64,000 nt of DNA. Source: Thelephora terrestris (taxonomy: Eukaryota; Basidiomycota; Agaricomycetes; Thelephorales; Thelephoraceae). The notes below the pieces were generated by a model that was not told the DNA's origin, searched no databases, and saw nothing but the letters and a program-made list of their open reading frames with translations. This document shows, piece by piece, positions 3 to 47,179 of the stretch. The DNA is taken from positions 930,001 to 994,000 of the forward strand of contig WIUZ02000011.1 of assembly GCA_015956445.1 (NCBI GenBank), written 5' to 3'. The position numbers and the translations under genes were made by a program. Positions within the stretch are counted from its first letter, which is position 1. Every line of letters starts with the position of its first letter.

Positions 3-3000
3 TCCCCTCTCGCAACTCAGATATCAGCCAATACGGATCCCAAAATGAATGGTAGGGGTGGTTTTAAGTCCTGCAAGTGTTCAGCACTGACAGCAACCCC
101 ACAGGCCCAAGAAAACCCTGCCCGGGAAGTCAGACACCAACAATACGGCTGCGAACCCGAGGTACCAGTACGGGTCAACGTGCCATCCGAAGGAGAGTAC
201 CTTCGCATAGACGTCCCACCCCCGGAAGACCAAAACCCAGGAATGATGGTAGCCGCCCACCTAGTCCGCGTCAAGGAGGATATCTTGGCCCCAGACGAGC
301 ACTCATTCTTCGCGTTCGGCGCGACAATTGTCGTCGGCGAAGAAGGGTGCCAGCAACCATTCGTGCACCACGGACAGGCTTATGTCCACCTCTTCAACTC
401 AAGTTCGGACGACCTCAGTAATCACACTGGGGACAAGGGCACAAATACCCAGTGGGTACATGCTGAACACATTGAGATTACAGTCAACAAGTGATCACAA
501 TGTGCCCAGTGGGGAAAATTTGAATACATTCAAAATGTGCCAGGCCATGTGTATCCAATGTGCCCACTGGGTACATTTTGATTGTGATCACAATGTACTC
601 AGCAATGTGATCTCAATGTGCCCAGTGGGCACATTTTGATTGCAATCACAATGTACCCACCAATGTGATCTCAATGTGCCCAGTGGGCACATTTTAAATT
701 CTTTCACAAAGTGCTCAGCAATGTGTTCACAATGTACCCAGCTCATTACATGATGTTTTCTTTCACAATGTTGTCCACAATGTGTCCAGCATGTGCCTGA
801 GCCACTCATTCAAACTTCTTTTACAAAGTATCCAGTGATGTGTCCAGAATGTGTGCAGCCATATACATGATGACTTCTTTGAGAATACATGATGAAATTG
901 AACATTATTGTGATTACATTGTGATTACTTCAAAAAGTACCCCCTGGGGACATTATGGACACATCACTGGATACTTTGTGAAAAAAGTTTGAATGAGTGG
1001 CTCAGGCACATGCTGGACACATTGTGGACAACATTGTGAAAGAAAACATCATGTAATGAGCTGGGTACATTGTGAACACATTGATGGGAACATTGTGAAA
1101 GAAATTAAAATGTGCACAGTAGGCACATTGAGAACACATTGGTGTGTACATTGAGATCAAATTGATGGGTACATTGTGATCGCAATCAAAATGTGCCCAG
1201 TGGGCACATTGGATTCACATGGCCAGGTACATTTTGAATGTATTCAAAATTTCCCCACTGGGCACATTGTGATCACTTGTTGACTGTAATCTCAATGCGT
1301 TCAGCATGTACCCACTGGGTATTTGTGCCCTTGTCCCCAGTGTCAGCCCCCTCCGAATCACGAGCAACACGGCGCGACAGCGACCACCCCTGACGAACCT
1401 CGCTATGTCAACCCAAAGGTGCTTGTCAACGAGGACGTAGATTCCCCTCGTACTTCCCCATTCCCCGGACAATCAATTGCTGGAGTTGTGCCTCGCGTAC
1501 GTCGAATGTTTTCTGAGTCTAGGAGAGTTAGTGTTAACGACGACAACGGACAGCCGTTAGCTGTCGAAGTCGCCATCAAGCAACTCAGAGCGTTGATACC
1601 CGAAGAAGACCCGATGAAGAAGCCAGCAGAACGAGAAAATGCAAGAGATCGTGTGCCTGATGGAGTGGGTGAGTGCACCCCCAAAATAACCCGAAATTCG
1701 CCATATGAAGAATTTAACTTAGCTGTCGTAGGGCGGGAGCCGTCCACACCGATTCATAACCCCCAGACCACCCAGAATCGGGTTCCAAGTGACCTGTTGG
1801 CTGTCCCGAGACATAACGTGGACATCAGTGTTTTTCCCTGTACGATCCTTGAAGACAGTCAGACTAAAGTTTTCGAAGACATGGACAACGAACTTACCTT
1901 GAAGGGTCCCCCGATTGCGACGCTTGACCCAGAAGAAGATATGATGCCTGACTCCCCTCCAGCACTAGACTACCCTGACAACATCATGGTTGACGAGCTA
2001 GCCGAGGACGACAAGTTGATGCTTGACATTCCGGGTCTGCACAAAAGTACTGATGCCCCGCCAAGTGCGAAATCCCTTGATCCCACCAAGGATGAAGACG
2101 ACCCCACCACCGATGAGGACCTCCGCCTTATAACTCGAATTCAGGAGAACTTACTGTACCTGTCGCCCTACATCGACCGCATACAGGAGAACGGTGAGAA
2201 GCATGAGGTCTTCGAGTGCTTGGCGAAGCTCGGCCTCCTGCAGATTGTCTACGAGATGACGCTGGCGAAAGACCAAGGAGAAACGAGAGGAAAGCAGTAC
2301 TGGGGCCGACGCATCGCCCAGATCTTGGACGAAAGGAAGACGGAAGTGGAAGAATTTATAGAGGAAAAGCGACGCGAGGGAAAGATAGCCAAGAAGCCAC
2401 GTCCAGTCACAATAATCAAGATTGAAGACGAGGTCGAGGCACCCCCTTACTCACCAGTTGAATGGTTACCACAGGAATCTGATTACGTCCCCAAAAGCCC
2501 GGCAGCAGGCGTTGTCGAAGACCCCCGTTACGTCCCAAGAAGCCCGGAACCCGAAGCAACAGAAGCACCTGTCAAACTGTCAAAACCAGACGCCGATCCC
2601 CTGACCGACCTACAGCAGCAGGTCTTGGAGCTTGAAGAAAGGTTTGATGGGTCTATTGACGATCTAAAGACGCGACTGAGGGAACTTGAAACTCAAGTAT
2701 TCTCGGACGGATGTCTCCTGACGGAGTTGAACTGGAAGTCGAATGAGTTGAAGAAGTGGGAAAATAAGGGATGGTCGAATAACAAAAAGGCTCACCGAAG
2801 GTATAACACGAAAGGTAACCCTCCTTATCAGACCAGATCTGTTACCGCAGCGTCTGCAGAATCAGTGAAGGAGATGCGGAGGCAGTTGACGAAACTAGGC
2901 GATCGGATCAGGAAGGTTGAGGTTGACATACAGATCGCACAAGAGGAGATCAAGATCACCAACGATAAGATAAGGAAACTTTCGATGCTGGATTCACAGG

Positions 3001-3290
3001 TGAAGTTATCGGCCCAAAACCTGGATGACCTACGACGTTCCCAAGCCGACATGAACAGTGTTCTCATGTCGGAAATCACCTCCCTCAAGCTAGGACTTGG
3101 ACCCCGTCTTGAACAGCAACTCAAGGATCACGCATTCGAGATCAACACCCTCACCAGCCGGTTCCAGCAACTTTATCATGTTGTGGTCAACACCCTCTAC
3201 CCTGATTACCCGAAGACCTCGGACCCCAGGAACGCCAACCAGACGTCCCCGAAGATTACCTCAAACCCCAAAACGGCCGCTGTTTTCTAA
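3..3290 (+). CDS. acidic, coiled-coil protein of unknown function, split by a hairpin element
   Basis: An open frame runs from the left window edge (first ATG at 45) to the hairpin element at 425 and resumes in the same frame after it, ending at 3290. If the element and one TCA duplicate are set aside, the join falls inside one CAG codon, so the frame is kept; the parts are about 140 and 650 codons. The gene may begin before the window. The N-terminal part is unrecognised. The middle is rich in Asp, Glu and Pro and has an IKIEDE stretch that fits a SUMO-site consensus (hydrophobic-K-x-E). The last 230 residues (about 2600-3290) have heptad-like Leu/Ile spacing typical of coiled coils. No enzyme motif is visible. 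With the insertion present the left part reads into element DNA and stops at 494, so the allele is probably disrupted unless the insert is removed from the RNA. Confidence 0.6.
425..1342. mobile_element. M1a: CACTG-type hairpin MITE, 918 bp
   Basis: Starts CACTGGGGACAAGGGC and ends with the reverse complement. Flanking TCA at 422-424 and 1343-1345 is a 3-bp target duplication. The two halves are near-perfect inverted copies meeting around 880, so the whole element can fold into one hairpin. It has no coding capacity; short open frames inside it are artefacts of the inverted repeat. CACT(A/G) ends with a 3-bp duplication fit the CACTA/EnSpm superfamily, so it is probably moved in trans. ACATTGTGA/TCACAATGT is repeated many times inside and could serve as subterminal binding sites. 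Confidence 0.9.
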
Positions 3291-5080
3291 GGTAAAGCCC
3301 TTCTTTGTATTCACCCCGCACCCATCTTGACGTTTTCATTAACGCCCTCATCCCATCAAACGCCCGTACCATAAACCCTTAGTCAAGTTGGATCGGACTC
3401 TATAACGCCGGAGATCCGATCTCCGGTGTCTGATTCCACAACACTTTTCGTGAGTACTAAGTCCCTCGCTTCACCACCCTCCCTCACCACTGTTTTCGTA
3501 TTCCCCTCCCCCTTATCTCTTTTTCGTTCTCGCTTTCCGACAAATCGACTGGAACCCTCCTACCACACGGTGCAACACCTTTGGTTTCGCCTCAAACTCG
3601 CTCATTTTTTGCCCTGCTCTCGTTTCGCGTCAATGGCACCTCTACTTCAACACGCCCGACGACTCGACGCCCATACCCCGACAACATCTCTCTCCCTCCT
3701 CAAAACCTCTCTTTTACGACTCATCACCTATCCCCACATCATTACTACCCATTGTTCGTCCCCGCTGTCACCGACTTAATCGACGAATCCAGTAAATTTC
3801 TCCGCCTCATTTTCCTCTCTCTCCTACTCTCTTTTTCCCCAGATATTTTCCTTCTCTCTCTCTCTCCTTTCTACCGAAACACCGAAAAACATCTACCAAC
3901 TATGCCCGGCCATTCAAGACACCCGGTGCGGTCTCAAGCGGATCCAAAATCCCGCTGAGTTATCATCTTCTCTATCAGTTTTCCCTCCCCTTTTCATCAT
4001 GCCTACTCCCTTTCTCTCGCTATCGGCCGGTTTATTCATAAAATTAATATCCTTTACTTCGTCCTGGCCTAGCCTGGACAACAGGCAGCCCGTTTTTCTG
4101 CCTCTCCTGCCCCCTTCCGCAACGCCCAGACCCGTCACCCCTGCAAGACCCTCTTCCGTGTCCACCGCCTGAGTCCCTTGCGGACTTCCTCTCATTCCCG
4201 ACCAACTCTCGCCCCACCGCCTACCCGTCTCCCGTGCCCTGCACCTCGTTTTCGCCACCTCCCGTACCTCAGCCGGATCCGTCGTACACCCGTACCTGTC
4301 TCCCGCCACCTTTAGTTACCCTTCCCCCCCTTTTCCGATATGTCTACCCTGCTTCTGTTGATCGAAGCCACCCGTGTTCCAATTTCCCCGTCTTTACACT
4401 CACCCATCCCTTTCCATTGCGCGGTCATACTACTACTTACTTCTTAAGTATTTTAGTGGTACCTTATTTGCCTCTACCTACCCGCTTTGTGAAACCATTG
4501 GAGTTCCGCCCCTCGTACCTCGTGTGACGCAAGATCTACCCGCTATTCCAGCAGGTAAGTATTGTCCCTGCCTACAACGCAGCACACCTTGAAAAGTTCC
4601 CCGCGGTGGCTCCTCTCTCCCATCCTCTTCCCACACTCTCTGTTATCTTCTTGCGCGGCGCGACGAACTCTAAAAAATGTTCCCCGCGATCCCCGTTCCT
4701 AGTTCCCCATTTATTTTATTTTTCCTCCACACTCCCTCTCCGTCCTCACGATCGGCGCCTTCTCCTTATGTCGCTACCTCATTTAAACTTCCTTTCCTTC
4801 CGATCGCATTTTTCCTTCCTCTGACATATCTCCCTCTTCCATTTAAAATTTCCCACGACTGCTACCCATCATTTCACCCTTTTATTTCTCCTTTGTTTGT
4901 TCTTTCCCGCATTCCTTTCAACTGCTTGTTGCCTCCCTCCCTCCCTCTCTCGTCGTTTTCTTTCCTGGGATTTTCTTCTTCCCTTTCCGTCTTTTCTATT
5001 TTTATTTTTATTTTTTTATTTTTCCTTATGGTGGGTACCTGTGGTACAGGTGAAATATAATTTTTTATATCTTCCCTACC
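3291..5080. other. pyrimidine-rich intergenic stretch, no convincing gene
   Basis: The plus strand is strongly C/T rich, with runs such as CTCTCTCTCTCTCC near 3850 and T-rich tracts near 4985-5030. Several open frames of 70-130 codons exist, but they look like low-complexity Ser/Pro/Leu/Phe products of base bias. A donor-like GGTAAGTATT lies at 4554. The string AAAAGTTCCCCGCGG at about 4592 recurs at about 8288, at the other side of the tandem gene cluster, suggesting that the cluster and its flanks share a duplicated leader. It may hold promoters and 5' leaders of the genes that follow. Confidence 0.5.
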
Positions 5081-9754: not shown

Positions 9755-10524
9755 AACGCGCGTACTATTCCCAGCGAATCCACAACAAGCTATATACGGT
9801 GCTATCCCAGTCCCATCAGAAATCGACTCTATCTACCGCAGGCCTAAAGGTCATCAATTGTCCATCCCGGAGATCGTAGTGATGGCCCCTCCTCGCAAGG
9901 ACCTCCCCGAACATGGCGTCACCGTCTTCGGCACTCAGCTGAACGACTAGTTCAAGCCGATAGGAAGAGATGCCTTCGAGCGGACCGATCAGCCTCCCCG
10001 ATGTCACCGAACTCTGGAACACTTGGTCCCACATCTCCATCACCGGGTGACTGCTCGACAGCACTATCGACGTAGTCGGCGAGCGACCCTCCATCTCCCT
10101 TGTCGGACCCCTGGGTGGGATTCTGTCTTGCGAGGCGAAGCTGGTGTTGGAGTTGGATCTCGGACTCGACCTGTCGGTAAGGACGGTGGACCCGATATCG
10201 GAATCCTCGCTCCTCACCTCGACCAGACTGGTCACCATCCGACTCAACTGGTCGAGGGTAAGGATTAGCCGATGCAGTCATACGATGGGCAGGACGGCGT
10301 CGAGAGCGTTTGCATCGTTGCCCCTTAGTCACCGGACGTACCTCGGCGACCCTCGGAGCATCTTCAGCTCGGTCAACCTCCATGACCTCATCCTCGATCT
10401 TCACCAACTGATGGATCGGCTGCAAGACGCAGCGCCCACAGTTCTCCTTGTCGGATGCGGCCAGAGTAGAAGCCGGAGCCGGAGTCAGAACGGGAACTGC
10501 GTTCTCGATCGGAGGCATCGCATA

Positions 10525-11477
10525 CACTGGGGGCAAGGGGTCAAATACCCAGTGGGTACATGCTGAATACATTGTGATCACAGTCAAAAAGTGATCACAA
10601 TGTGCCCAGTGGGGAAAATTTGAATACATTCAAAATGTACCTGGCCATGTGAACCCAATGTGCTCAGTGGGCACATTTTGATTGTGATCACAATGTACCC
10701 ATCAATGTGATCTCAATGTGCCCACTGGGGACATTTTGATTGCAATCACAATGTACACATCAATGTGATCTCAATGTGCCTGCTGTGCACATTTTAATTT
10801 CTTTCACAATGTTCCCATCAATGTGTTCCCAATGTACCCAGCTCATTACATAATAGTTTCTTTCACAATGTTGTCCACAATGTGTCCAGCATGTGGCTGA
10901 GCCACTCATTCAAAATTCTTTCACAAAGTACCCAGTGATGTGTCTAGAATGTGTACAGCCATACACATAGTGATTTCTTTGAAAGTTCATGATGAAATTG
11001 AACAATATTGTGATTACATTGTGATTACTTCAAAAAGAACCCCCTGGGGACATTATGGACACATCACTGGATAATCTTTGAAATAATTTTGAATGAGTGG
11101 CTCAGCCACATGCTGGACACATTGTGGACAACATTGTGAAAGAAACTATTATGTAATGAGCTGGGTACATTGGGAACACATTGATGGGAACATTGTGATT
11201 GCAATCAAAATGTGCACAGCAGGCACATTGAAATCACATTGATGTGTACATTGTGATTGCAATCAAAATGTCCCCAGTGGGCACATTGAGATCACATTGA
11301 TGGGTACATCGTGATCACAATCAAAATGTGCCCACTGGGCACATTGGGTTCACATGGCCAGGTACATTTTGAATGTATTCAAATTTTCCCCACTGGGCAC
11401 ATTGTGATCACTTTTTGACTGTGATCACAATGTATTCAGCATGTACCCACTGGGTATTTGACCCCTTGCCCCCAGTG
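10525..11477. mobile_element. M1b: CACTG-type hairpin MITE, 953 bp
   Basis: Same subfamily as M1a (internal CCAGTGGGTACATGCTGAA near each end). CACTGGGGGCAAGGGG termini and an ATA duplication at 10522-10524 and 11478-11480. It lies in the last exon of the T copy A gene. Confidence 0.92.
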
Positions 11478-12279
11478 ATAGGATGACGGGTTAGGCGAAG
11501 GGAGTACCACCTCATCGGCGTACTCCAACTCGAACGGAACGTCAACTGTCCCCTGACCAACCAATTTGGGACCCTCCTTGCAGTTGCAGGTCTTGTCCTG
11601 CAAGGACTCGACCTGCGCCGTCAACACGGCCACCACGTTCTCGAGTTCTTCCGTCTAGAAGAAGGTCTTTCAGTTATTGCACAAACTGCAAAGGCTGAAA
11701 GACGACCTTTTCATCCCTCCTGGCCAACGCCCCCTTAATGTTGTTGTCCCTAACCTTCAACCCGGCGATCAACTCCTGATGATTGGCGACCATTGCCTCC
11801 AATGCCTCGTTCGTTCCCTGCTGGAAAGCGGCTAAGGTCTCCTTCATCTGAAGACCTTCCGCTGATAGACGAAGAACGTCTGCCTTCGCCTCCTTCACCT
11901 CCCGCTCCAATCGTTCAACCTAGGCAGTTTGATTAGCCAAGAGTCATACTCGAATATTCAAACAGAGAACTTACCCGGCTCTCCCCTTCCCGAACGAGCG
12001 ACCACAAGAGACTAGTGGAAGCGGTGGCATGGCGGACGGCTTGAGGAACGGTGGCTCCATGCTCCAACAGGTCCTGATCGTAAATTCCCCTCTGCAGGGT
12101 ATACCAGAGCTCCTTCTTAATCGGATGCTCCAGCTCCCCGAACCTACCCCTCATCTGGAAGGCCACCTTCTCGGCGATGATCATACAGACCCAGAGTTCA
12201 TCGTCCCAGGTCAATCCCATCAAGTGAGGGATCGTCTCCCTAAGACGTTCGGCGTCCACTTCCGTGACGACCTCCAAGA

Positions 12280-13119
12280 CACTGGGGGCAAGGGGTCACT
12301 TCCCCAGCAGATACATTGTGATTACATTGTGATTTTTTAGACAATGTGTCCAGCCTGTGGCCAGGAGGTACATGCTGAGTGCTTTTACAAAGTACCCATC
12401 AATGCAACCACAATGTGGCCAGTGGGTCCATCTTGATCACTTTTACAAAGTGCCCATCAATTCAATCACAATGTGCCCTGTGGGTCCATGCAGGATACAT
12501 TGTAAAAGTATCCATCAAAGTGGCCACTGGGCACTTTGTGAAAGAAACCCCTGGGTTCTTTCACAATTTTGTTCACAATGTATCCTACTGAGTGCCTGAG
12601 CCACTCATTGAGAGTTCTTTCAAGAAGTACCCAACAATGCAACCACAATGTCCCCAGGGGGTTCTCCCCAATCTTTTCACAATGAACTCTCAATGTGGTT
12701 GGATTTCACAACAAACTCCCAAAGAAACCATTGAGTATCTGGTTGAATACTTTGTAGACACATTGCTGGATATTTTCTGAAAGAACTCTCAATGAGTGGC
12801 TCAGGTGTATGCTGGACACTTTGTGAAAAAAATTGTGAAAGAACTCAGGGGTTTCTTTCACAAAGTGCCCAGTGGCCACTTTGATGGATACTTTTACAAT
12901 GTATCCTGCATGGACCCACAGGGCACATTGTGATTGAATTGATGGGCACTTTGTAAAAGTGATCAAGATGGACCCACTGGCCACATTGTGGTTGCATTGA
13001 TGGGTACTTTGTAAAAGCACTCAGCATGTACCTCCTGGCCACAGGCTGGACACATTGTCTAAAAAATCACAATGTAATCACAATGTATCTGCTGGGTAAG
13101 TGACCCCTTGCCCCCAGTG
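12280..13119. mobile_element. M2: CACTG-type hairpin MITE, 840 bp
   Basis: CACTGGGGGCAAGGGG ends, inverted halves, AGA duplication at 12277-12279 and 13120-13122. The interior differs from M1 (TTTACAAAGTACCCATCAAT units), so it is a separate subfamily sharing only the termini. The target is the exon 2 acceptor region of the T copy A gene. Confidence 0.92.
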
Positions 13120-16026
13120 AGATCTAGAAGTTGTTAGTTTGACATCAACGCCGAAAGAACGTAACCTCTACCTAGAGGAAGGCGTTAGTGCAAACACATA
13201 AAGCTCTAGGTCTCCCCCATACCTGATCATCAGTGGTATAGGGAGTCCCTGCCGCACAGGCATAGGTCTTGCGAGCGGCGGCACAACGGTCAATACGGGA
13301 GATGGTGGAGATGCCGTTGGCAACCTTGTAGGTATGGTTGTTGGGGAAGGACATGTTTTGGTAAGATGATGGGGAAGTTGCTGGTGTTGCTGATGAAGGA
13401 TGGCTCCAAGAAGACGTCCTTCTTATAGCCTAGATCGGTGATCCTTCACGTGACCTACCTCGACGAACCTCATTGGTCCGGGTCACATCAACTTCCGCCC
13501 CTGTACCATCATCGTTGGCTTACTACATCAAGCTGACACCTCGGCCCGCGGGACGGCCTTGGAAGAACTTCGTTCCAGAACGTTTAGAACGCACGCGCAC
13601 TAAAAATAGGTCTCATGACCTTGATGACCCTTTACGACCCTGATGACTCATTTATGACATCATGATAACGACCAACCCTGGACCCTGGAACACACACGTG
13701 GGCACGGGGTATCAACATTTGGACACTGTGCTTCTAATCGGATAGTAACCCTATCTGATTTGGTTGTGCTTTGGAAGCAGAGTAGGCCCGAGCCGAGAAC
13801 GGCGGCCGAAGAATATAATCCCTGGTGCCACTTAGGAAGAACGATATTCCCGTGCTATGCCTAATCAAGACTGGGTCTGATCAAACGATTATGGTTGCAA
13901 CTCCCAGGTTACTGCCTGTCCGTTGGTATCATACCACCTACAGACAACAAGGGATGTGTAGAGTTCCTTCGATCTCTAGCCAATCGCAGAAGCTCAGAGA
14001 CGGTGCTCACCTGACCCTTGGGTGTGGTCTAGATTCAGGTACGAACTTTCATGACCCATGCCCTTATTTCTTTTAGGACTAGTGTTATCTTTACCCCTAT
14101 GTTTCATGCAGATATTTCTTATCTCTTATGCAATCCTTCACACGCTAGTAAGGCCCTTTGTCCTTTATTCTCCCACGCGTCACATTGTTCGCTTCCCTTA
14201 CTTAGCGTTCTCACACTCCTTATCTCCCTTTGTTCTGGACTTGATAAGGGTATATTAGGGTATTGACGTCATGGCCACTCCTTTAGTATAAGTAGCAACT
14301 GTGGCTGTATCGTAGTACCTTAGTTTTGTTACCTCAGGAAATCCTCTGCCCTTCTCAGCCCAGTTGCAGTTAAGGACAAGTCAGAGTTTCTTGTTTGATC
14401 CAAGACATCCCCATCTGCTCTCCCTCCCGCTCTGCGCGTCAACTGCGCCTCGTACCTATAGACTCCCAGCAGTCATATTAGAACACCTTGAGCGTCCAGT
14501 CGATCAACTGGTGGAGTCATCAATCCTGTTGTAGGGATAAACCCTTGCTTGTTAAACCGAACGAAGTACGGTTTAGGTTGGGTTTCTCTTTAGGATTTCG
14601 ACCTGACTTGTAGTGACCTCGGACAACCTACCGGAAGAATAGAGACGTGAACGTTCTCTCACAAGCTAGTTGGACTAGTGAGTACTCTGCGGAGTCGGCT
14701 CAGTGCACTGGTAGTTGTTGGGGTAGAGTGGCCCTGACATGTGGCACCTATGGCTGAAGTACCTGAGGAGTGTCAGGGCCACTCTACCCCAACAACTACC
14801 AGTTCACTGAGCCGACTCCGCAGAGTACTCACTAGTCCAACTAGCTTGTGAGAGAACGATCACGTCTCTATTCTTCCGGTAGGTTGTCCGAGGTCACTAC
14901 AAGTCAGGTCGAAATCCTAAAGAGAAACCCAACCTAAACCGTACTTCATTCGGTTTAACAAGCAAGGGTTGATCCCTACAGCAGGATTGATGACTCCACC
15001 AGTTGATCGACTGGATGCTCGAGGTATTCTAATATGACTGCTGAGAGTCTATAGTTACGAGGCGCAGTTGACGCGCAGAGCGGGAGGGAGAGCAGATGGG
15101 GATGTCTTGGATCAAACAAGAAACTCTGACTTGGCCTTAACTGCAACTGGGCTGAGAAGGGCAGAGGATTTCCTGAGGTAACAAAACTAAGGTACTACGA
15201 TACAGCCACAGTTGCTACTTATACTAAAGGAGTGGCCATGACGTCAATACCCTAATATACCCTTATTAAGTCCAGAACAAAGGGAGATAAGGAGTGTGAG
15301 AACGCTAAGTAAGGGAAGCGAACAAAGGTGACGTGTGGGAGAATAAAAGACAAAGGGCCTTACTAGCGTGTGAAGGATTGCATAAAAGATAAGGAATGTC
15401 CGCATGAAACATAGGGGTAAAGATAACACTAGTCCAAAATGGAAATAGGAGCATGGGGTCGTGAAAGTTCGTACCTGGGGATCTCACCCAAAGGCCAGGT
15501 GTCAATCTCCCTTTACATGGCCTCTGCCAGCTGGATTCGGGAGTAGAGACATTCAACATCCCTTGTTGTCTGTAGGCGGTAACAGCATCACGGACTAGTG
15601 GCAACCTCAACGTACGTCCGAACATGAGGAGGTCGGGCCTAAACTCATGGGACATGAGGGATTACAGATTCGCCGGCGTTTCACGCTAACGGCTACTCCA
15701 CATTCGCTTGGCTAACCAGAAGGAGTCTAAGGCACTCCTTCCGAATAATGGCGATTCCTTCCTCCGGTTAGGAGACTGTGATGTGACTGTCCACGTGTGT
15801 GATCAGGGTCCAGGGTTGATCGTAATCGTAAGGTCATGAGGGGTCGTAAAAAGGGGTTCCTGATGTCATAAAGGGGTCATCAGGGTCTTGAGACCTATTT
15901 TTAGTGCGCGCGCGTTCTAGGCGTTCCGGAACGAAGTTCTTCCAAGGCCGTCCCGCGGGCCGAGGTGTCAGCTTGATGTAGTAAGCCAACGATGATGGTA
16001 CAGGGGCGGAAGTTGATGTGACCCGG

Positions 16027-16082
16027 ACCAATGAGGTTCGTCGAGGTAGGTCACGTGAAGGATCACCGATCTAGGCTATAAG
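16027..16082 (+). promoter_or_regulatory. CCAAT and TATA boxes of the T-element gene
   Basis: ACCAATGAGG at about 16027 and CTATAAGAAGG (TATAAG 16077-16082) lie 123 and 68 bases before the ATG at 16150. The block recurs upstream of the gene in the other T copies, so the element brings its own promoter. Confidence 0.6.
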
Positions 16083-16149
16083 AAGGACGTCTTCTTGGAG
16101 CCATCCTTGATCAGCAACACCAACAACTTCCCCATCATCTTACCACAAC

Positions 16150-17752
16150 ATGTCCTTCCCAAACAACCATACCTACAAAGTTGCCAACGGCATCTCCACC
16201 ATCTCCCGTATCAACCGTCGTGCCGCTAACCGCAAGACCTACGCCTGTGCGGCGGGAACTCCCTATACCACGGATGACCAGGTATGGGGGAGACCTAGAG
16301 CTTTGTGTGCTAGCACTAACGCCTTCCTCTAGGTAGAGGTTACGTTCTTTCGGCGTTGATGTTAAACTAACGGCTTCTAGATCTTGGAGGTCGTCACGGA
16401 AGTGGACGCCGAACGTCTCAGGGAGACGATCCCTCACTTGATGGGGTTGACCTGGGATGACGAGCTCTGGGTCCGTACCATAATCGCCGAGAAGGTGGCC
16501 TTCCAAATGAGGGGTAGGTTCGGGGAGCTGGAGCATCCAATCAAGAAGGAGCTCTGGTACACCCTGCAGAGGGGGATCTACGATCAGGACCTGTTGGAAC
16601 ACGGAGCTACCGTTCCCAGGGCTGTCCGTCATGCTACCGCTTCCACTAGCCTTTTGTGGTCGCTCGTTCGGGAGGGAGAAAGCCGGGTAGGTTTTCTGTC
16701 TGAATATTCGAGTATGACTCTCGACTAATCAGACTGCCTAGGTTGAACGATTGGAGCGCGAAGTGAAAGAGGCGAAGGCAGACGTCCTTCGTCTGTCAGC
16801 GGAGGGTCTTCAGATGAAGGAGACCTTGGCAGCCTTCCAACAAGGAACGAACGAGGCGTTGGAGGCAATGGTCGCCAACCATCAGGAGTTGATCGCCGGG
16901 TTGAAGGTTAGGGACAACAACATCAAGGGGGCATTGGCCAGGAGGGATGAAAAGGTAATGCTGCTTTCATCATTGCTCAGAATGATGGAAGCTGACATTT
17001 CCTAGACCGAAGAACTCGAGAACGTGGTGGCTGTGTTGACGGCGCAGGTCGAGTCCTTACAGGACAAAACCTGCAACTGCAAGGAGGGTCCCAAATTGGT
17101 TGGTCAGGGGACCGCCGATGTTCCGTTCGAGTTGGAGTACGCCGACGAGGTGGTACTCCCATCTCCTAACCCGTCGTCCTATGCGACGCCTCCGATTGAG
17201 AACGCGGTTCCCGTTCCGACTCCGGCTCCGGCTTCCACTCTGGCCACCTCCGACAAGGAGAACTGTCCTCGCTGCCTTTTGCAGCCGATCAGTTGGCTGG
17301 TGAAGATCGAAGATGAAGTCATGGAGGTCGACTGGGCCGAAGATGTTCCGAGGGCCATTGAGGTACGTCCGGTGACAGCAGGGCAGCGATGTAAACGCTC
17401 TCGACGCCGTGTTGCTCATCGCATGGCTCCATCGGCTAACCCTTATCCGCGTCCAGTTGAGTCGGATGGTGACCAGTCTGGTCGAGGTGGGGGACGAGAG
17501 TTCCGCTATCGGGTCAACCGTCCCTACCGACAGGTCGAGTCGGAGATCCAGCTTCGCCACCAGCGTAGACTCGCAATACAGGATCCCACCCAGGGGTCCG
17601 ACGAGGGAGACGGAGGGTCGCTTGCTGACTACGTCGATAGTGCTGTCGAGCAGTCACCCGGTGATGGCGATGTGGGACCAAGTGTTCCAGAGTTCGGTGA
17701 CATCTGGGAGGCTGATCGGTCCGCTCGAAGGTATCTCTTCCTATCGGCTTGA
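16150..17752 (+). CDS. T-element gene, copy B: four-exon coiled-coil protein of unknown function
   Basis: Exons 16150-16281, 16382/16381-16686, 16742-16954 and 17006-17752, all phase 0, with GT-AG introns of 99, 55 and 51 nt; about 465 residues. Exon 1 starts MSFPNNHTYKV. Exon 2 holds the best-conserved block (LTWDDELWVRTIIAEK, KKELWYTLQRGIYDQD). Exon 3 and the start of exon 4 are a Glu/Lys/Leu coiled coil (LEREVKEAKADVLRL, VAVLTAQVESLQDK). Then come a CxC pair (TCNC), an acidic linker with VKIEDEV (SUMO-like) and a basic KRSRRR patch. No catalytic motif is recognised. A second frame is open over the 3' end (see findings). The same exon layout in five copies supports the model. Confidence 0.7.
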
Positions 17753-18074
17753 ACTTGTCGTTCAGCTGAGTGCCGAAGATGGTGACGCCATGTTCGGAGA
17801 GGTCCTTGCAAGGAGGGGCCAGCACTACGATCTCCGGGATGGACAGTTGATGACCTTCAGGCCTGCCGTAGATAGAGTCGACTTTTGAGGACGTTGTATA
17901 AGCATTAGTATAGCCATGTTGTTCCGTCTTGCCGTGAATGTATGCGCGTTTGTGTGTTTTGAATGATTGGTATGAAGGATAAGGAGTGTGAAGCATTCAA
18001 AACATAGGAAGTGATAAGAAGAGTTCGAAGAAAGAGCGTGTTATAAAAAGTTTAAAAATACCATGTTCCTGACA

Positions 18075-18475
18075 AGGAGAGATTCCTGGAAAGGTTTCCA
18101 ATGTTCCAAAGCAAAGTGAGAGAAGTCGTCATTAAGACTGTTGACAACCACATACATGACATCCATCCTCTTTTCCAACTTCAGGATCCTATCCTCCCTC
18201 TCCTGCTCCATCGCGTCTTGCATGGGAGTGACCCCAGGAGCCCACCTTCGAGTCTTACTGGGGTCGTTGTACCCAGCTTGCTCCCAGAACTCGGCGGGAG
18301 CATTGTGAGCCGTCAGAAAGTCCACGGCTACCTGGTTATTGTGGGCGATATTGGCAGGGGAGTCGTATAAGTGTTGCTCCACGGTGAAGGGGGCATCCGT
18401 CTCGAAGGACAGAGAGAAGTCGAAAGGGGTGGCCACAGCGTTGAGCAAGGCGTTGTTGGTAGCATAAGCAGACAT
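18075..18475 (-). pseudogene. S-element minus-strand coiled-coil gene, copy S3, interrupted
   Basis: Starts at the ATG at 18475 (MSAYATNNALLNAVATPF) and matches the S2 protein through FETDAP, QHLYDSPANIAH, NAPAEFWEQAGY and the coiled coil LKLEKRMDVMYVVVNSLNDDF. T copy B lies within the coding region. Function unknown; see S2. Confidence 0.6.
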
Positions 18476-19363
18476 TGAGCAAAAGGGTGGTTTGAGAGGG
18501 GAAGTTTTAGTGGTGTTGGTGGGAAAGGAAAAGAGACGATGGGAGGAAAGAACCAATAATCCCCCTAGATTATATACGGCCAAGTCAATAGGAAACCGAA
18601 AAGGGAGAACAACAAACCACCACTCATTACAATCCCGATTAGGGTAAACGAACCCTCAACCCCAATTGTGATCCCATCAAAACCCGGGAAATCCCCAACG
18701 ATCACGAGAAATCCCCACCACACTTCTATCGCTACCATCAGTCCAGAGAAATCCCCATCACGCTTCTATTACTACCATGAAACACAAGAAATCCCCTAAT
18801 ATTTCCATCAGCTCGCACCTCTATTGTCTCCACATTAGCAATTACCATCTGTCATTCTAAGTTCCCCCTTTCTGACTCATTCGACCTACCCTAAAGTACG
18901 CACAGACCATGTGGGTCCCTATTTGGTTCGTTGTAGAAATAGTGACTCCTGTAGAGGATTGGGTATATAAGGAAGAGCGTTCGCTCCTTTCTTTTCCCCA
19001 TTCTCAATCTCTTCTGTACTCTCCTACGCACAACCTCAATAAAAGTAAGCTGAGGAATTCTCCTCACGTCTTACACCTTCTGACTCATTCAAAGCAGGAA
19101 TTCTCCTGCTAGTGTATGTTCAGCGCCCCTAACCCATTCCCCTCTACTAGTCCTCTCCAACGCCCGGTCATACCAGATGCCCGAAGGTCTATCTGGGAGT
19201 ATAAACTCATCAGAAGTCTTCAAGTAAACTGAACCGCCGCTTTACTCACACATTTCCCTTATTATCGACCCTTTGCAGCCCTCGACTCCGGAGTCACCAC
19301 TCCACCCTTCCTCCTAGGAGCCGATCATCAGTTCCTTTGGAACTCAGACATTACTGAGAGCGT

Positions 19364-20399
19364 TGTCGTGACCGTATTTCGGACACTATCTGGAATCGCG
19401 ACCTTCTCTCAACTATTGACAACCGCTGCACGAGGTCTAGATGACTTCCCTCAGCATTCTTGACTGTCCCGACGAGGACTCACCTGTCCCTTTGCTTCGC
19501 TACACTTCCCTCTCTCCTTATCCCCCTTTGCGACATTCCGACGTCCCGACATTTTCCCCTTTCGACCTGCGACCTGCGACTTAGACCTGTGACCTGCGCC
19601 CCCTCAACCCGCGACCTGCGACCTGCGTTCCCTAGCATTTAGTATCCCTAGGACTTTGTTTCCTTCACATTCCCTCCCGATCACGTCCCGATCAGTCCCG
19701 ATTGTGTCCCGACTTTTCAGTACGTTTTATATCTTTAGTTTTCATCTCCCTATCTCCATTCCCTGCGTCCCGATCACGTCTCGATCGATCGCCCTGCTTG
19801 CGACTCCAGACCTCCCTCTGGTTCGTTTCTCAACCACATTCCTTTCCTTCATCATTCCCTTCGATCCCCCACCTTCCCTATGTCATAGACTCGTCATAAG
19901 GTCTTTTGACATCACTTTGGTTCGTTTCCTTTGGTCCCTTCGTTCTCAGAGTCCCCAGTATTGTATATAAAGGCCCCTGTATTTGATAGACCCAGAATCA
20001 ATCAGCAGCGTTCCCTCTCTCTCTCTTCCTCTCTCTCTCTCTCTCTTCTGAGGCCTAGCAGCATTGCTACAGTCCTCCCTTCGGTTCCCTCGTCGTCTCA
20101 CCCTCGTTCTTGTTGTCCCTCTGGTCTCTTGTGTCCCGCTGGTGTCCCGATTTCTGACTCTCTTGTCCCGACGTTTCCCAACGTCTCCCTTAGTTGACTA
20201 TTGGTAGTTTCGTGCCCTGGCTTTCCTGTTGCCTTCTGCCTCGTTCTCCTGTTCTCTTCCCGACTTTCTCTCTCACCTTTCGTTAGCTTCCCGCAGATTT
20301 CCTAGAGGCTCGCGCCTCTAAACCAAGGACCCGACCTTCTAACTGCCATCTCTGCCCTCTCAGACTCCGAAGGCTTTGTGGCTAGTTCAGCGTCCTAGC
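19364..20399 (+). mobile_element. solo LTR of the Ty3/Gypsy family, 1036 bp
   Basis: Begins TGTCGTGACCGTATTTCGG and ends GGCTTTGTGGCTAGTTCA, closely matching the 3' LTR at 50972-51978. GCGT at 19360-19363 and 20400-20403 is a 4-bp duplication. TATATAAAGG lies near 19965 and a CT microsatellite at about 20010-20048. It sits in the plus-strand gene of S3. No internal region remains, as expected after LTR-LTR recombination. Confidence 0.88.
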
Positions 20400-20877
20400 G
20401 ACCGTCTACTTCAGTATAAGTCCGGCCTTCTACTTCCCAAATCCTCGCATTCACCTTACCACTAACGTTCACACCCATTCCCCTGCGATTATTGTCTTGT
20501 GGTGGGAAATCCCAACTGAATTACCTTATTCAGTTATAGAATATCTCGTAAGCTTTGAACGCCTCAGCGACCAAGACTTCGATCCGTTCATTCAACAACT
20601 GAGTCAATTCTGCCAAGACTATCACTCACCTGTTCACCCTTACCAAACCAATTCACCACTCGCCCTTGATATTCCCCCCTCCCTCACCTCCACACCCGGA
20701 ACCCCCCTCAACGTTTGACCCGACACTCCTCACCCGTCCGCTGATCCTCTAGCGTCCCTTAAACAGTAAGCAGGCCCACAACCCTGACAACAACTTGGTT
20801 GGAGGTGTTTTGGTTTAATGTAGTTGGTCACTCACTTGTGAGATGGTGAACAGGGGTTTTTCTGGGGAACCCCTGTG

Positions 20878-21260: not shown

Positions 21261-22183
21261 TGTCAGGGCCACTCTTCGCCCTTCAGGTACCAGTGCTGTT
21301 GGTGAGTCGCAACTCCAACCAACAAGAGTCAATGGGGCAAAGGGGGAACAACTTCCCTATATCCACCCAAAGTCTACGTGGTCCAAAACGCGATGGACGA
21401 GCGTTCTCCGGTAGGTTGTCCAAATTCACAGCAGGAGTGCCGAGCCTCTATCTAACAAATCCCTGTTGTCGTCTGAGGGTAGATGTAAGAGCCCGAGGAT
21501 GGCGCCTCAAACTGGTGCTTGATCAAGAGAGCGACGAGGAACTCCTTTTCGTAAGTGCGTTCGCCGATTCTTGATACAAGGCTGAGAGAGAGAGGAGAGC
21601 AAACATGTTCAAAGAGGTACTTGATAAGCTCTTCAGTGGCCTACAGCAAATACACCGATGCTGCAAGGAGAAGAGGACTTCCCGAGATATCAAAGATCGG
21701 GAATCCTCAGCTACTCTACTGGTACTTATATAGGAGAGTGGCCGGGACAGAGATAACCCTATCTAATAATAACTCGGAGCAAAGAAGGGCCGAGAGTAAG
21801 CCAGAGCAGTAAGCGGTCCGGAACATAGAATACAAATGATAAGAGAATGACTAATGGGTCAGGGTTCGTGAGAAAACAAGAAAGGGGTCATGACATCGTG
21901 TGGGAAAGGAATGACAAAGAACAATATCACATGTGAAGACAAACCAATAGGAGGACGACACGTCAGCTCATCTGATCAGGATAACAAACAACCGAGTGGG
22001 TTTTGAATGTCCAGGCGAATGTATGGGGAGTCTGGACCGGTGAAACGATGGACCGATCCAATGGCGAATATGGCGCGAGCACTACCGATGATCGGATAAA
22101 GTGTAGTGTTAACCGGCTGTTGGATCCATCAAACTCCCTTCTCCCCAAACCAACATTCCCACCAAACAACTACTCATCCTACC

Positions 22184-24574
22184 ATGCCCATGATCTCTGA
22201 TCGCATCTTCCGTGCTGAGAACAGCACTGCTACCATCGAGTCCGTGGATCCACGGTCTGTAGGAAACAAGGGATACTTCCTTCCTACTTCCAGCGTGGCG
22301 TACCCCAGTTATCGAGAGGCGTGTTGTCATGTGCATGCCGGTTGTTGGCGTCAACTGACATCGCATTCGTAGATCTTTGCAGTCGCCGACAAGGTGGATG
22401 CTCGTCAACTGGAGGCGACAATCGTTAATCCTCCCAAGTACTTGACCATGGACGACGAGTTGTGGTTTCACAACTTGATTGACCACAAGCTGCAAGAGTC
22501 GATGCGTGGGGTGACGTTCGATACTGAATTGCACATGCCGTGGGAGACTCCTGTGGCGTCTGTGTTGTGGGGTCTTCTGCGGCTGGGAATCTACGACCTA
22601 GGAAACAGCGAAGGAAGGTGGCCTGGAGCTACTCGTTCCCAACACTACACAGCAGCCGTTGGTCACCGCCTTTGGTTCCTTTTGCGGACGGAACAGAAAG
22701 CGGTGAGTTGATCTGTGCATCCCGCTTGTGGGATAACACTGATTGGCTTTCACTGGGGGCAAGGGGGTACTTACCCAGTGGGTACATTGTGAGTTCATTG
22801 TAGGTTTTGAAACCATTCGCCCAGTCATTACCCACCAGGTACTTTTTGGGTACTTTTTGAAAGATACCCATCAATTCACCCACATTTTACCCACTGGGTA
22901 CATGGTGGGTATTTTGTAAAAGTACCCACTCAGGAACCCAGTGGGTATTTTTTGAGCGAAACCCCTGGGTTCTTTCACAATTTACTTTCCAATGTGCCCA
23001 TCACAAACTTGAGCCACTCGTTGAGAGTTCTTTCACAAAATACTCACCGATCTGATCAAAATGTACCCAGTGGGTTTTTTTCAAAGAACTCACAAAGAAC
23101 TAACAGTGTGGCTCAGTTTTACCACAAACTCTCAAAGAACCCATTGAGTATCTGGTTGAGTACATTGTGATCAGATCAGTGGGTACTTTATGAAAGAACT
23201 CTCAATGAGTGGCTCAGATTTGTGATGGGCACATTGGAAAGTGAATTGTGAAAGAACCCAGGGGTTTCGCTCAAAAAATACCCACTGGGTTCCTGAGTGG
23301 GTACTTTTACAAAGTACCCACCATGTACCCAGTGGGTAAAATGTGGGCGAATTGATGGGTATCTTTCAAAAAGTACCCAAAAAGTACCTGGTGGGTAACG
23401 ACTGGGCGGATGGTTTCAAAACCCACAATGAACTCACAATGTACACACTGGGTAAGTACCCCCTTGCCCCCAGTGTTTGTAGAATGAACATTTGAAGCGT
23501 GAGGTGAAGGAAGCGAAGGACGACGCTCGTAGGATGTATTCGGAGATGCTGGACACTGAGAAGACTCTCCTCTTGATGAACGACACGCTTCGTGTGACGT
23601 TCAAGAGTGAGATGCTGGCGATGCGAGAGGAACACAACCGACTGGTCGAGTCATTGAAGGAACAAGACGACACCATACAGAAGGACTTGATCAAGGTCGA
23701 CCGGCGGCTCAACCGTCATAGAAGGGCTCTGAACGAGTTGGACACCAAGGTTGGCGTGATGTTCCCCCGTAGTTGCGGAGGAAACTCATTCCACTTCTTA
23801 GGTTGATACGTTGGATGACGCCTTACCCTTGCTGGGTGCTCAGGTCGAGTCCATGAGTGAACGGTTGTGCCATTGTTGAACCGGAGGTCTATGCCCGGCA
23901 ACAGGTCAACCGGCTCCACCGCTTCAAGCGAGAGCCGATGCCGGAGAGCGCTCAATAAGCGACCCAAAGGGACGGTATCACATCAGTGATCCGATCGATC
24001 GGTATGACGCGTGCGTGCCTTAAGCTGCCGCATGGACCCTGCATCAGTCACACTGTATAGTTGTGACTCCAATAGAGTAGAAAGATATATATACCCCACA
24101 TGTGTAGATAGATCAATCAATCGCTTCTCTCTCTCTCTCCCCCACTAGCAACTATAAAAGCCTCTCCCCTTCAGGTAAGACTTAGAGTACCCGTGTGGTA
24201 GTATAGTATTATACTCTACCTGCTCAACAGCCATTGCCGTACTCGTTCGGTGGCGGCCGTTCGTGACGAGTCCGATGACGAGTCAATTCCGGACAGGATG
24301 GCTTCGCCAGCCTCTGGCGGTTCGTACCACACGCTGGCGTGTACCGATGGCGGGGAGGAGGTTGTTTGTGAGACGTCTGAGGAAACGGCGGTCAACCCGG
24401 TTAGTAGCTTGCCCGAGTTGGAGTACGCGGGGGAGAACGAGGTGGCCATTCCGGTTCCGCCTCCTTCAATCTCTCCGGTGCGTGGACAATGTTCCATTCG
24501 TGCCCATCGATGGGTTCCTTATAACGGTGCTCATCGTCCAGCCCATCGAATGTGTCCCAGCAATCCCAACGCTG
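22184..24574 (+). pseudogene. G-element gene, homologue of the T-element coiled-coil gene
   Basis: Exon 1 from the ATG at 22184 or 22190 (MISDRIFRAENS), exon 2 22373-22702 (MDDELWFHNLIDHKLQE matches the LTWDDELWVRTIIAEK block of T), exon 3 23483-23749 (LKREVKEAKDDARRM, coiled coil), exon 4 from about 23802 (GAQVESM). A further block at 24250-24574 (LPELEYAGENEV, RPAHRMCPSNPN) matches the T 3' exon (FELEYADEVV, AHRMAPSANP). It lies in a broken element copy. Function unknown. Confidence 0.5.
22751..23475. mobile_element. M3: CACTG-type hairpin MITE, 725 bp, in an intron
   Basis: CACTGGGGGCAAGGGG ends, TTT duplication at 22748-22750 and 23476-23478. The interior is built of GTACCCA/TGGGTAC units. 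It lies in intron 2 of the G1 gene, ending 7 bases before the exon; the right-hand TTT duplicate is part of the acceptor TTTGTAG. Confidence 0.92.
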
Positions 24575-24842
24575 TGTCACGAACACGTGACATAGTGTCC
24601 AAAATCACACAGATAATTCAAGACATTGGTCTTATTCGTCGTAATAATACAAAGGCAGTTAAAACACACTACAAAACTAAACCAGAACAAAGGGGTCTAC
24701 ATCACAAGCACACTCCTGAGCCATCGGGCAACGATGAGCAAAGTGATGAAGGTTGTAAACGCTCTGGGGGCAATACGTATATGCCCGAGTTACCGGATCT
24801 TGCCAACACTCCCTACACCCCAACACATCATGATACAGACTA

Positions 24843-26110
24843 TCATGCATCTCCCGTTTCACGTCTGACAAGGCGGCGCTCACTAAGGCAAACCCATAGC
24901 GGTCTTGGAGACCCGCAACTTCTACCTTCAACTTCATCCGAACCTGACGTGACTTGTCGGAGGGACGACAGTGTTGACCAGAACGAGTCATCGGACTCTT
25001 CCGGTTCTTCTTCCTCTGGGACCTCTCCACCATCTGGCGAACTGGGGCAGGACTCCAGGGAGGGGATGGAGGGAGAGGAATGCCCTGATCCTGGCGGTGG
25101 CGAAGGGATGACTGGGGACTTGCAAGGGGGGTCGGTGCAATAAGCCCCATGGCACTGGTGTCCGAAATATCGGAAGAGAGACGCCTGGAAAGGTCCCCAA
25201 TGTTCCAAAGCAAAGTGAGAGAAGTCATCATTCAAACTATTCATGATGACGTACATGAGGTCCACACACTTCTCCAACTTCGCAATTCGATCCTCCCGTT
25301 CCCTCTCCATGGCGTCCAACAGAAGGACGGCTCCAGGGTGTCTAGCCTCAACCTGAGGCCTAGCAAGTCGGGGATCTTCATACCCGGCCTGTTCCCAGAA
25401 CTCGGCGGGGGCGTTGTCACTGGGGGCAAGGGCCTGAATACCCACCGGGCACATTGTGATTACATTGTGGTCACAGTCAAAAAGTGACTCCAATGTGCCC
25501 AGTGGGTACATTGTGAACACATTTTGAATGTACTCCATCATGTGAATCAAATTTTGCCATCACCAAACATGTAGATCACATTCAAAACTTGCCCTAAAAA
25601 GTTTTTCGAATGCGATCGACGATCACATTCACAATGTATTCAACATGTGGAGGAATTGGTGGGGTACATTGTGAACACATTTTGAATGTCGTCGATTTTA
25701 CAATGTGAATCGAATGTATTCAAAATATGCCTAGGACATGCGTTTTGGTGCATTATGGTCACATGACTGGGTACATTGTAAATGCGATCAGTATTTGCCC
25801 AGCGGTAATATTAAATTCACATTTTTGGGCACATTTTGAATGTACCTGATTTTTACCCACCGGGCACATTGGGATCACTTGTTGACTGTAACCACAATGT
25901 AATCACAATGTACCTGGTGGGTATTTGGGCCCTTGCCCCCAGTGTGTGGGCGGTGAGGAAGTTGATGGCAACCTGGTTGTCGTGGGCGATGTTGGCAGGA
26001 GAGTCATATAAATGTTGCTCCACGTCGAAGGGAGCGTCCGTCTCGAAGGACGGAGTGAAGGGGGTGGCGGCAGCGTTAAGTACGGCGTTGCTGGCAATGA
26101 AAGCAGACAT
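24843..26110 (-). pseudogene. S-element minus-strand gene, copy S1, interrupted by M4a
   Basis: ATG at 26110 (MSAFIASNAVLNAAATPF). The coding match to S2 breaks off at the hairpin element at 25418-25944 and continues after it to 24843 (FWEQAGYEDPRLARP, coiled coil, then acidic Ser-rich tail EEPEESDDSFWSTLSSLRQV). Function unknown. Confidence 0.65.
25418..25944. mobile_element. M4a: CACTG-type hairpin MITE, 527 bp
   Basis: TGT duplication at 25415-25417 and 25945-25947. Almost identical to M4b (44925-45451), the same 527 bases long, and both lie inside coding regions of other elements. The ends invert over about 130 bases but the middle (GCGATCGACGATCACATTCAC) is less symmetric than in M1. 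Confidence 0.92.
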
Positions 26111-26745
26111 GGTAGTGATGGATGTTTAGGAGAGGGTGGTGGTTGGTTTGGTGGGAGTGGAAAAGAGACGATGGGGGAAAACGATCATTAATCCCCCTGA
26201 CTTAAATACACCCTGATTCAAAGAAACCAAAAGGGGAGAAACAATAACCTATTATCCATTAACATCCCCATTAGGATAAACGAACCCTCAACCCCAATCG
26301 CGATCCCATCAATTCAGAGAAATCCCCATCCGTCTTCTACTGCTACCGTGAAACAAGAGAAGTCCCCATCGATCAGGAGAAATCCCCACCAGTCTTCTAT
26401 TACCACCATCGATCGTGAGAAATCCCCATTATGCTCCTAAATGACTCCTTCACTATTGTTCCCCTATTTCATTTCATCATTTGTTGTTCCAAAGTCCCAC
26501 TCCCCTGACTCGTCCAACCTACCCTAAACTACGCACAGACCATGTTGATTCCTGTTTGGCTCGTTGTAAAATAATGACTCCTGTAGAGGATTGGGTATAT
26601 AAGGAAGAGCGTTCGCTCCTTTCTTTCCCCATTCTCAATCTCTTCTGTACTCCTCTACCCACAACCTGAATAAAAGTAAGCTGAGGAATTCTCCTCACGT
26701 CTTACCTCTTCTAACTCCTTTCAGCAGGAATCCTCCTGCCAGTGT

Positions 26746-27369
26746 ATGTTCAGTGCCCCCAACCCTTTCCCCTCCACAAGTCCAGTCCAGCGACCAGTCG
26801 TCCCTGACGCCAGGAGATCTATCTGGGAGTATAAACTCATCAGAAGTCTCCAAGTAAACCGAACCGCCGGCTTACTCACCCATTTCCCTTATTACCGCCC
26901 CTTTGCAGCTCTCGACGCCGGAGTCACCACTCCCCCTTTTCTCCTGGGAGCAGATCACCAATTCCTTTGGAATTCGGATCTTACTGAGAGCGTCCTCGCG
27001 ACTGTCTACTTCAGTATTAGCCCAGCCTTTTACTTCCCCTCCCCACGTGTTCATCTCACCACTAATATCCACACCCATTCCCCTGCTATCATTGTTCTTT
27101 GGTGGGAGATCCCAACTGAATTACCTTATTCGGTTATAGAATACCTCGTCAACTTCAAACGCCTTAGCGATCAAGACTTCGAACCCTTTGTGCAGCAACT
27201 CAGCCAGTTCTGCCAAGACTACCACTCACCCGTTCACCCTTATCAGACAGAGTCGCCCCTCTCTCTTGATATTCCTCCTCCTCTCGTTTCCACACCCGGA
27301 ACCCCTTTCAAAACTAGACCCGACACCCCTCACCCTTCCGCTAATCCTCTAGCGCCCCACAAACAGTAA
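26746..27369 (+). CDS. S-element plus-strand gene, copy S1, 207 residues, function unknown
   Basis: Starts at the ATG at 26746 in CAGTGTATGTTCAG, 150 bases after TATATAA, with AATAAA at about 26670 between them. Reads MFSAPNPFPSTSP, then ARRSIWEYKLIRSLQVN, FPYYRPFAALDAG, AIIVLWWEIPTELPYSVIEYL, YHSPVHPYQTESPLSLDIP and a Pro/Thr-rich end. The ELPYSVIEYL...VHP...PLSLDI part resembles the tandem paralogues at 5219-8230. It ends 20 bases before the element end. It looks whole. Confidence 0.6.
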   Translation: MFSAPNPFPSTSPVQRPVVPDARRSIWEYKLIRSLQVNRTAGLLTHFPYYRPFAALDAGVTTPPFLLGADHQFLWNSDLTESVLATVYFSISPAFYFPSPRVHLTTNIHTHSPAIIVLWWEIPTELPYSVIEYLVNFKRLSDQDFEPFVQQLSQFCQDYHSPVHPYQTESPLSLDIPPPLVSTPGTPFKTRPDTPHPSANPLAPHKQ

Positions 27370-27431
27370 GCAGGCCCACAACCCTGACACACCGTCCGAC
27401 AGGGAGGAGACATCAAATCCACCGTCCTATT

Positions 27432-45451: not shown

Positions 45452-45454
45452 CCA

Positions 45455-47150: not shown

Positions 47151-47179
47151 CCATCTTCTCCCCCTCTCGAGATCCCTCG

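Follow-up and report, generated by a model that had tools for sequence, protein, structure and literature searches.

A Predicted Spliced Antisense Gene in the Giant Long Terminal Repeats of a Ty3/Gypsy Chromovirus of Thelephora terrestris

The 64,000-nt stretch of DNA analysed here (the window) comes from Thelephora terrestris (assembly GCA_015956445.1, contig WIUZ02000011.1, positions 930,001-994,000 of the forward strand), and genome-wide searches were made in the same assembly (40.6 Mb, 60 contigs). The window contains two kinds of unit shaped like long terminal repeats (LTRs), called T and S. The T unit at 14771-18074 (3304 bp, element sense on the minus strand) is the LTR of a Ty3/Gypsy chromovirus. 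With high probability it is the solo LTR of a self-primed chromovirus, and its U3 region holds a complete spliced gene with its own promoter, directed against gag-pol. A first-pass annotation of the window had offered two explanations for T and S, namely giant solo LTRs with genes in U3 or a gene-carrying, non-autonomous class of element. T is now settled as a giant LTR carrying a selected antisense gene, as the former explanation had it; for S, no paired unit, primer-site junction or polypurine-tract junction was found by tests that assume T/U-like signals or cover part of the S copies.

Structure and Copies of the T Element

The T copy at 14771 begins with TGTCAGG, ends with CCTGACA and has its own exact AGGAG target duplication on both sides (14766-14770 and 18075-18079); it is a single LTR without an interior. 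Its sense-promoter TATA box (TATAAG, 15218-15223, minus strand) lies 452 nt from the CA end. The first-pass annotation had reported TG...CA ends, exact 5-bp duplications and a TATA box 450-800 bases before the CA end for both T and S, and all of these were recovered; the GTGGG duplication that it also listed belongs to a second T copy (57094-60922, plus strand, interrupted at 58476-58975; duplication at 57089-57093 and 60923-60927).

That annotation had further suggested a search for T units in direct orientation with a primer-binding site just inside. Such pairs were found, 9318 and 9310 bp apart, together with a leader containing the primer site and outer duplications. Two same-strand units on contig C1 lay 9318 bp apart with GATTA outside both, and these paired LTRs were 99.9% identical; the pair on C4 differed at one of 3307 alignment columns and had ATCAC outside both. 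A tandem array (C23:1029462-1051374) was arranged LTR-interior-LTR-interior-LTR, with its three units at 9310-bp spacing; the array includes a U3 stretch without a match to T. The interior of the element, approximately 6.0 kb between LTRs of 3.3 kb, holds gag and pol. In the C1 copy, open frames for gag (681 codons) and pol (1322 codons) were read on the strand opposite to T as written, placing the element sense of T on the minus strand. Pieces of these frames matched zinc knuckle (CCHC), Retrotrans_gag, RVT_1, ribonuclease H (RNase H), H2C2, rve (integrase core), Tf2-type SH3 and chromo domains, so that gag and reverse transcriptase (RT)-RNase H-integrase-chromodomain lie between the LTRs, and a polypurine tract (AGGAAGAGGATAA) precedes the TG of the 3' LTR. 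The paired units, gag-pol, the leader with its primer site and the outer duplications, all in the same assembly, identify T as a chromovirus LTR. A non-autonomous class, of the kind of large retrotransposon derivatives (LARD) or terminal-repeat retrotransposons in miniature (TRIM), was ruled out for the T family because an autonomous element is present, with T-type gag-pol between paired units.

When a 458-residue RT-RNase H query was used, 92 of 110 candidates matched; eight of the 92 were T-type pol (99-100% identical), with no stops within the matched stretch. The T LTR-leader junction was found 8 times genome-wide, against 412 T 3' ends (≤3 mismatches; reversed-pattern control, 0), which supplies the count of solo versus paired units that the annotation had called for and indicates that most T units are solo or broken. 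T copies mostly differed from one another by 4-8%, and identical 5-bp duplications flanked 6 of 9 fetched solo copies (window copy counted), whereas one of the nine had none. Two inverted copies, L005 (C23:671349-674652) and L007 (C23:677291-680594), were identical in sequence to three decimals and each carried one half of the other's duplication, which looks like an inversion via recombination between inverted LTRs.

Sister Family U and Self-Priming

Three further pol loci, 71-72% identical to T over the RT-RNase H stretch, represent a sister family, U. The U element on C12 has 2934-bp LTRs that are 99.93% identical, with GTTTT on both outer sides, and a second U LTR pair brackets pol on C5; in U the tract AGAAGGAGGATCC precedes the TG. 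The LTRs of T and U have nearly no nucleotide similarity, with a single 23-nt match.

In self-priming of the Tf1 type (described for Tf1 in PMC2864245) the leader pairs with the 5' end of its own mRNA, and the corresponding complementarity was present in both T and U, the start of R being placed from the TATA box. Two bases past the 5' LTR, 12 nt of the T leader can pair with a segment of the T LTR that lies 34 nt after the TATA box; in U, 11 nt of the leader can pair with the U LTR 35 nt after the TATA box of that family. The T segment was found on the C1 element, and the identical 12 nt are present in the window copy (15178-15189, minus strand), where R would start at 15189. No match of ≥8 nt was obtained when leader and LTR were crossed between T and U, and base-shuffled LTRs attained the observed length of complementarity in only 1/500 (T) and 2/500 (U). 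This covariation of leader and LTR between the families fits Tf1-type self-priming, and priming is probably Tf1-like. The position of the complementarity puts the start of R approximately 420-445 nt from the LTR end, so that the U3 of T would be about 2.9 kb long.

The Antisense Gene in U3

The T gene lies at 16150-17888 on the plus strand, wholly inside U3 and antisense to gag-pol, and has 497 codons in five exons (16150-16281, 16381-16686, 16742-16954, 17006-17730 and 17771-17888). By its motif, a TATAAG approximately 70 nt before the antisense ATG (16077-16082, plus strand) is a possible promoter. Copies were sampled non-randomly and comprise the 8 best search matches, among which is the window copy, another three, and 2 added later. 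The spliced frame of 1494 nt with one terminal stop was found in 11/11 copies without a gap across 498 codon columns, and it was also open in two further LTRs of the C4 paired element, giving 13/13 checked. GT and AG were preserved at introns 1-3 in all 11 copies, and the introns of the T gene are 40-99 nt long, which, like the elements themselves, suggests a fungal genome. The pooled ratio of nonsynonymous to synonymous differences (pN/pS) over the 11 copies was 0.130 (pS approximately 0.21-0.22, pN 0.027), compared with 1.47 and 3.12 in the shifted plus-strand frames.

The U homologue likewise has five exons (506 codons) and was open in all five U LTRs sampled, a non-random choice among 45 matches listed, with GT and AG preserved at four introns and a pN/pS of 0.092. 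The T and U proteins are 34% identical, most strongly over exons 2-4 (tblastn E 5e-19), and three phase-0 introns lie at matching columns, one of them slid by one codon. Since the RT-RNase H stretch is 72% identical between the families, the antisense gene evolves more rapidly than that stretch and has nonetheless been retained. The T gene is thus under codon-level constraint and has a homologue in the sister family; its antisense transcription and splicing are predicted from the sequence. Synonymous sites of T differed more than non-coding ones, with pS of approximately 0.21-0.22 against 0.056 in introns and 0.020 in R-U5 (L001-L011).

When the T and U proteins are aligned, conservation is seen in the N-terminal part, and a Cys pair and basic patches can be recognised; weak Pfam coiled-coil matches, below cut-off, were obtained at approximately 131-245. 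We tentatively suggest, as the likeliest role of this coiled-coil protein with basic patches, that it may act in trans in the nucleus, either regulating the element or serving it as an accessory factor, by analogy with HBZ of human T-cell leukemia virus type 1 (HTLV-1) and with the nuclear products of other antisense retrotransposon open reading frames (ORFs). The antisense RNA may instead be the main product and the protein of lesser weight, but constraint at the codon level speaks for a protein that matters.

Several points weigh against a self-primed chromovirus with a complete spliced gene in U3. Intron 4 of T lacks a GT donor in 4 of 11 copies, which makes the fourth intron the least certain and leaves the C-terminus of the protein uncertain. 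One of the minus-strand control frames also had a low pN/pS (1.17, 0.24 and 2.83), and no Pfam match of the T or U antisense protein reached cut-off. The T copies were mostly best matches to the window copy, so that intact ones were favoured, and approximately 10 of the 13 LTRs are independent, since two elements contributed both of their LTRs and one pair of copies is identical; broken copies are present in the window. A second match of the T leader, 9 nt long, lies close to the end of the LTR. Alternatively, the T gene may not be a working protein gene, its frame being open only because the copies are young, and the identical duplications around six of the nine solo copies do suggest young insertions. 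We regard this as very unlikely, because copies that mostly differ by 4-8% show pS of 0.21, pN of 0.027 and no frame-breaking gap, young age does not produce a pN/pS of 0.1, and the U homologue persists with matching introns. It is scarcely credible that T and S represent DNA transposons whose termini are TG...CA, although the short inverted ends (TGTCA/TGACA) and 5-bp duplications speak for it. The T termini enclose a gag-pol element with leader and polypurine tract, which refutes a DNA transposon for T, and no RT or transposase domain was found by Pfam search in the ORFs of either unit, in agreement with the first-pass annotation.

With T read as the solo LTR of a self-primed chromovirus, the antisense position of the gene would account for its introns. 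Introns of a gene carried in the sense orientation are removed from genomic RNA by splicing and are lost at the next reverse transcription. Genomic RNA of the T element would be complementary to the antisense gene, so that the introns could not be spliced from it and would survive retrotransposition; antisense carriage would thus be a route by which a retrotransposon retains spliceosomal introns through reverse transcription. Reverse transcription would copy U3 to both ends, giving two gene copies per full-length element, and LTR-LTR recombination would leave a solo LTR with one. Solo LTRs may go on supplying the antisense protein once gag-pol is lost, and the element may leave a regulator or accessory gene behind at each such loss. 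The two sister families with their covarying primer sites offer a readily testable system.

The S Unit

The S unit (40819-43090, plus strand) was found solo only. It begins with TGTCACG, ends with CCCTGACA, an end common to S, T and U, and is flanked by exact GACGT duplications (40814-40818 and 43091-43095). Its TATA box (TATATAA, 42294-42300, plus strand) lies 796 nt from the CA end, and AATAAA is present at 42367-42372 (plus strand), as annotated. The first-pass annotation had placed an antisense protein gene in each unit, and this holds for both the 497 spliced codons of T and the 245-codon ORF of S (41090-41827, minus strand); it had, however, overlooked a sense ORF of 207 codons in S (42447-43070, plus strand), between the TATA box and the CA end.

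Genome-wide, 320 S 3' ends and 209 5' ends were found (≤3 mismatches; reversed-pattern controls, 0). Forty loci were fetched non-randomly, and 35 of them (L016-L050) were taken as nominally complete; L051-L054 (partial S), L055 (a stretch between two) and L036, L046 and L048 (end missing or unit broken) were excluded, leaving 32 loci and the window copy. An identical 5-bp duplication was present in 30 of the 32 fetched copies with both ends located, and copies differed by approximately 12%, suggesting that most of the divergence is older than the insertions and was gained over rounds of movement under selection. The sense ORF had exactly 207 codons in 30/33 copies with a pN/pS of 0.092 (31 sequences; shifted frames, 2.4 and 2.5), and the antisense ORF had 241-246 codons in 29/33 with a pN/pS of 0.206 (30 sequences; shifted frames, 0.86 and 2.2). 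If only neutral substitutions had acted, up to half the difference typical of a pair of copies, 23% of sense and 16% of antisense ORFs would be open; both ORFs look selected. The sense ORF had a pS of 0.41, against 0.034-0.15 in non-coding parts of S. The S antisense protein was not detectably related to the T/U antisense protein (probability 0.4%). The 207-codon ORF had no Pfam match and a predicted structure with a mean predicted local distance difference test score (pLDDT) of 41, and none of the three extra proteins had a match above the Pfam cut-off. Searches of solved structures gave best E values of 0.88, 0.005 (over a 31-residue stretch) and 0.0099, none of them convincing.

The paired search that had also been suggested for S gave no pair with primer-site, leader or polypurine-tract signals, at partial coverage of the flanks. 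The self-priming site predicted for S was found at 0 junctions under the strict limit (≤3 mismatches); looser matching gave 8 hits, each with a different spacer, and the predicted site was in none of them. When S was combined with the T/U leader, all 10 matches were T-type (8) or U-type (2) and none was S (reversed control, 1), and no T/U-like polypurine tract lay next to S at ≤1 mismatch. Among 97 of the 320 S ends (60 short flanks fetched, 34 from earlier S loci and 3 in the window), no 3' flank recurred in register and none had >8 nt complementary to the S promoter region; three pairs of loci shared sequence ≤400 nt downstream, not in register within the first 40 nt. Two same-strand S neighbours lie 6.4 kb apart on C13, and the complete member has its own AGCGG duplication. 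The primer-site and polypurine-tract tests assume T/U-like signals or saw part of the copies, so that a rare full-length S could be missed.

We think it fairly likely that S units are solo LTRs from a related, third Ty3-type family, which would have few or no full-length copies left in this genome; both ORFs would have been needed while it moved. The TG...CA termini, 5-bp duplications, TATA box, AATAAA and the end common to T and U agree with this, and in T, likewise, most LTRs are solo or broken (8 junctions against 412 ends), which makes the lack of a pair in a modest S sample unsurprising. On the other hand, no junction with a primer site, T/U leader or polypurine tract was found, nor any in-register flank among the 97 ends, and the T rate of 8/412 predicts approximately 6 junctions among 320 S ends; 0/97 is not significant, but 0/320 would be by our own arithmetic if the predicted primer site is right. 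It seems unlikely that S is instead a stand-alone element of LTR shape that has two genes but lacks an interior and depends for its movement on machinery supplied in trans, such as that of T/U. The absence of recurrent in-register flanks (0/97), the identical duplications in 30/32 copies and a sense ORF kept at its exact length in 30/33 copies, where 23% would be open under neutrality, speak in its favor. However, a solo LTR lacks a primer site and so has no known copying route, the primer-site and polypurine-tract tests lean on the analogy with T/U, the 97 ends are only a part of the 320, and the 207-codon ORF lacks a Pfam match and a confident model. We are equally inclined to doubt that S is a mobile unit made up solely of a block of LTR shape, bearing a sense and an antisense gene that are both under selection, and that it is propagated in trans by related self-primed Ty3 elements whose own LTRs hold a spliced antisense gene. 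If this were true, solo LTRs would be gene-bearing, selected parasites of the element and not scars.

Further Features of the Window

The window holds broken T copies, and a third T copy (T positions 187-3304) lies at 9816-14739 on the plus strand, interrupted by 58-bp-period units at 10525-11477 and 12280-13119. A U-type LTR, also interrupted, lies at 21261-24575 (minus strand), and fragments of the homologous antisense gene can be read there on the plus strand; compared by eye with L056, the stretch at 24250-24575 seems to be without the fourth intron of the U LTRs, a possible precise intron loss. Two more S copies are on the plus strand, one at 24575-27389 with U-type sequence on its left (interrupted at 25418-25944) and one at 18077-20789 with an incomplete 5' end (interrupted at approximately 19376-20388). 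The S copy at 40819 is located at the end of an ORF of 554 codons, for which Pfam gave no match, and a pol match containing two stops lies downstream of the copy; this S copy was apparently inserted into a different, broken Ty3-type element at 39170-48194.

Units with a 58-bp period (CACATTGTGA-like) occur at 425-1343, 10525-11477, 12280-13119, 22751-23475, 25418-25944, 44925-45451, 50002-50803 and 55993-56452. Several have hairpin-like inverted arms, some are inserted in T, U and S copies, and two that lie 19.5 kb apart are 98% identical. An inverted repeat at 29008-30363 and 31534-32887 has 1.36-kb arms (98% identical) around a 1.2-kb center, and a 678-bp inverted repeat at 48143-48820 and 48847-49524 has 99% complementary arms separated by 26 bp.

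Comparison With Known Systems

Self-primed chromoviruses of the Tf1/Tf2 type resemble T in having gag, RT-RNase H, integrase, a Tf2-type SH3 and a chromodomain, and their leader, like that of T and U, is complementary to the start of the mRNA, a position inferred in T and U. What sets T and U apart is the length of their LTRs, 2.9-3.3 kb, and the spliced antisense gene that U3 contains.

Viral genes have been associated with LTRs in other ways. The Sag gene of mouse mammary tumor virus (MMTV) encodes a protein inside the LTR, as the T gene does, but in the sense orientation, whereas the T gene is antisense. The HBZ transcript of HTLV-1 is spliced, and its coding sequence is mostly outside the LTR, unlike that of T and U; the bZIP model matched only one of three T/U proteins, at E 0.73. 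HBZ resembles the predicted T product in being antisense, with an LTR promoter and a nuclear location that are putative in T; excerpts of PMC7264820 and PMC11963269 describe it as nuclear, with its antisense promoter in the 3' LTR.

Antisense additional ORFs (aORF-3R) are described for plant and fungal LTR retrotransposons, including maize Grande (gene23), RIRE2, Retand, PvRetro13 and Botrytis Boty (brtn), in excerpts of PMC7264820 and PMC11963269, and the brtn ORF also in an excerpt of PMC8365987. According to the same parts of the first two sources, aORF-3R lie between pol and the 3' LTR and are conserved frames antisense to gag-pol in most copies, with functions not known and some products nuclear. 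The T/U gene is like them in being antisense to gag-pol and conserved in copies, but it lies inside the U3 of the LTR, is present twice per element, persists in solo LTRs and has introns. The T and U proteins also had no match to TRP28 (PF04195) up to E 1, in contrast to Retand-type products. Because of this and of its location, we do not class the T/U gene as an aORF-3R, though it may work alike. Among the matches listed in our literature search, none was seen to describe an LTR that contains a spliced antisense gene. Solo LTRs are usually regarded as inert scars, whereas the large T family stems from elements with a conserved spliced LTR gene. Antisense accessory ORFs are already known; new here is a spliced gene that lies inside the LTR and is kept in solo LTRs.

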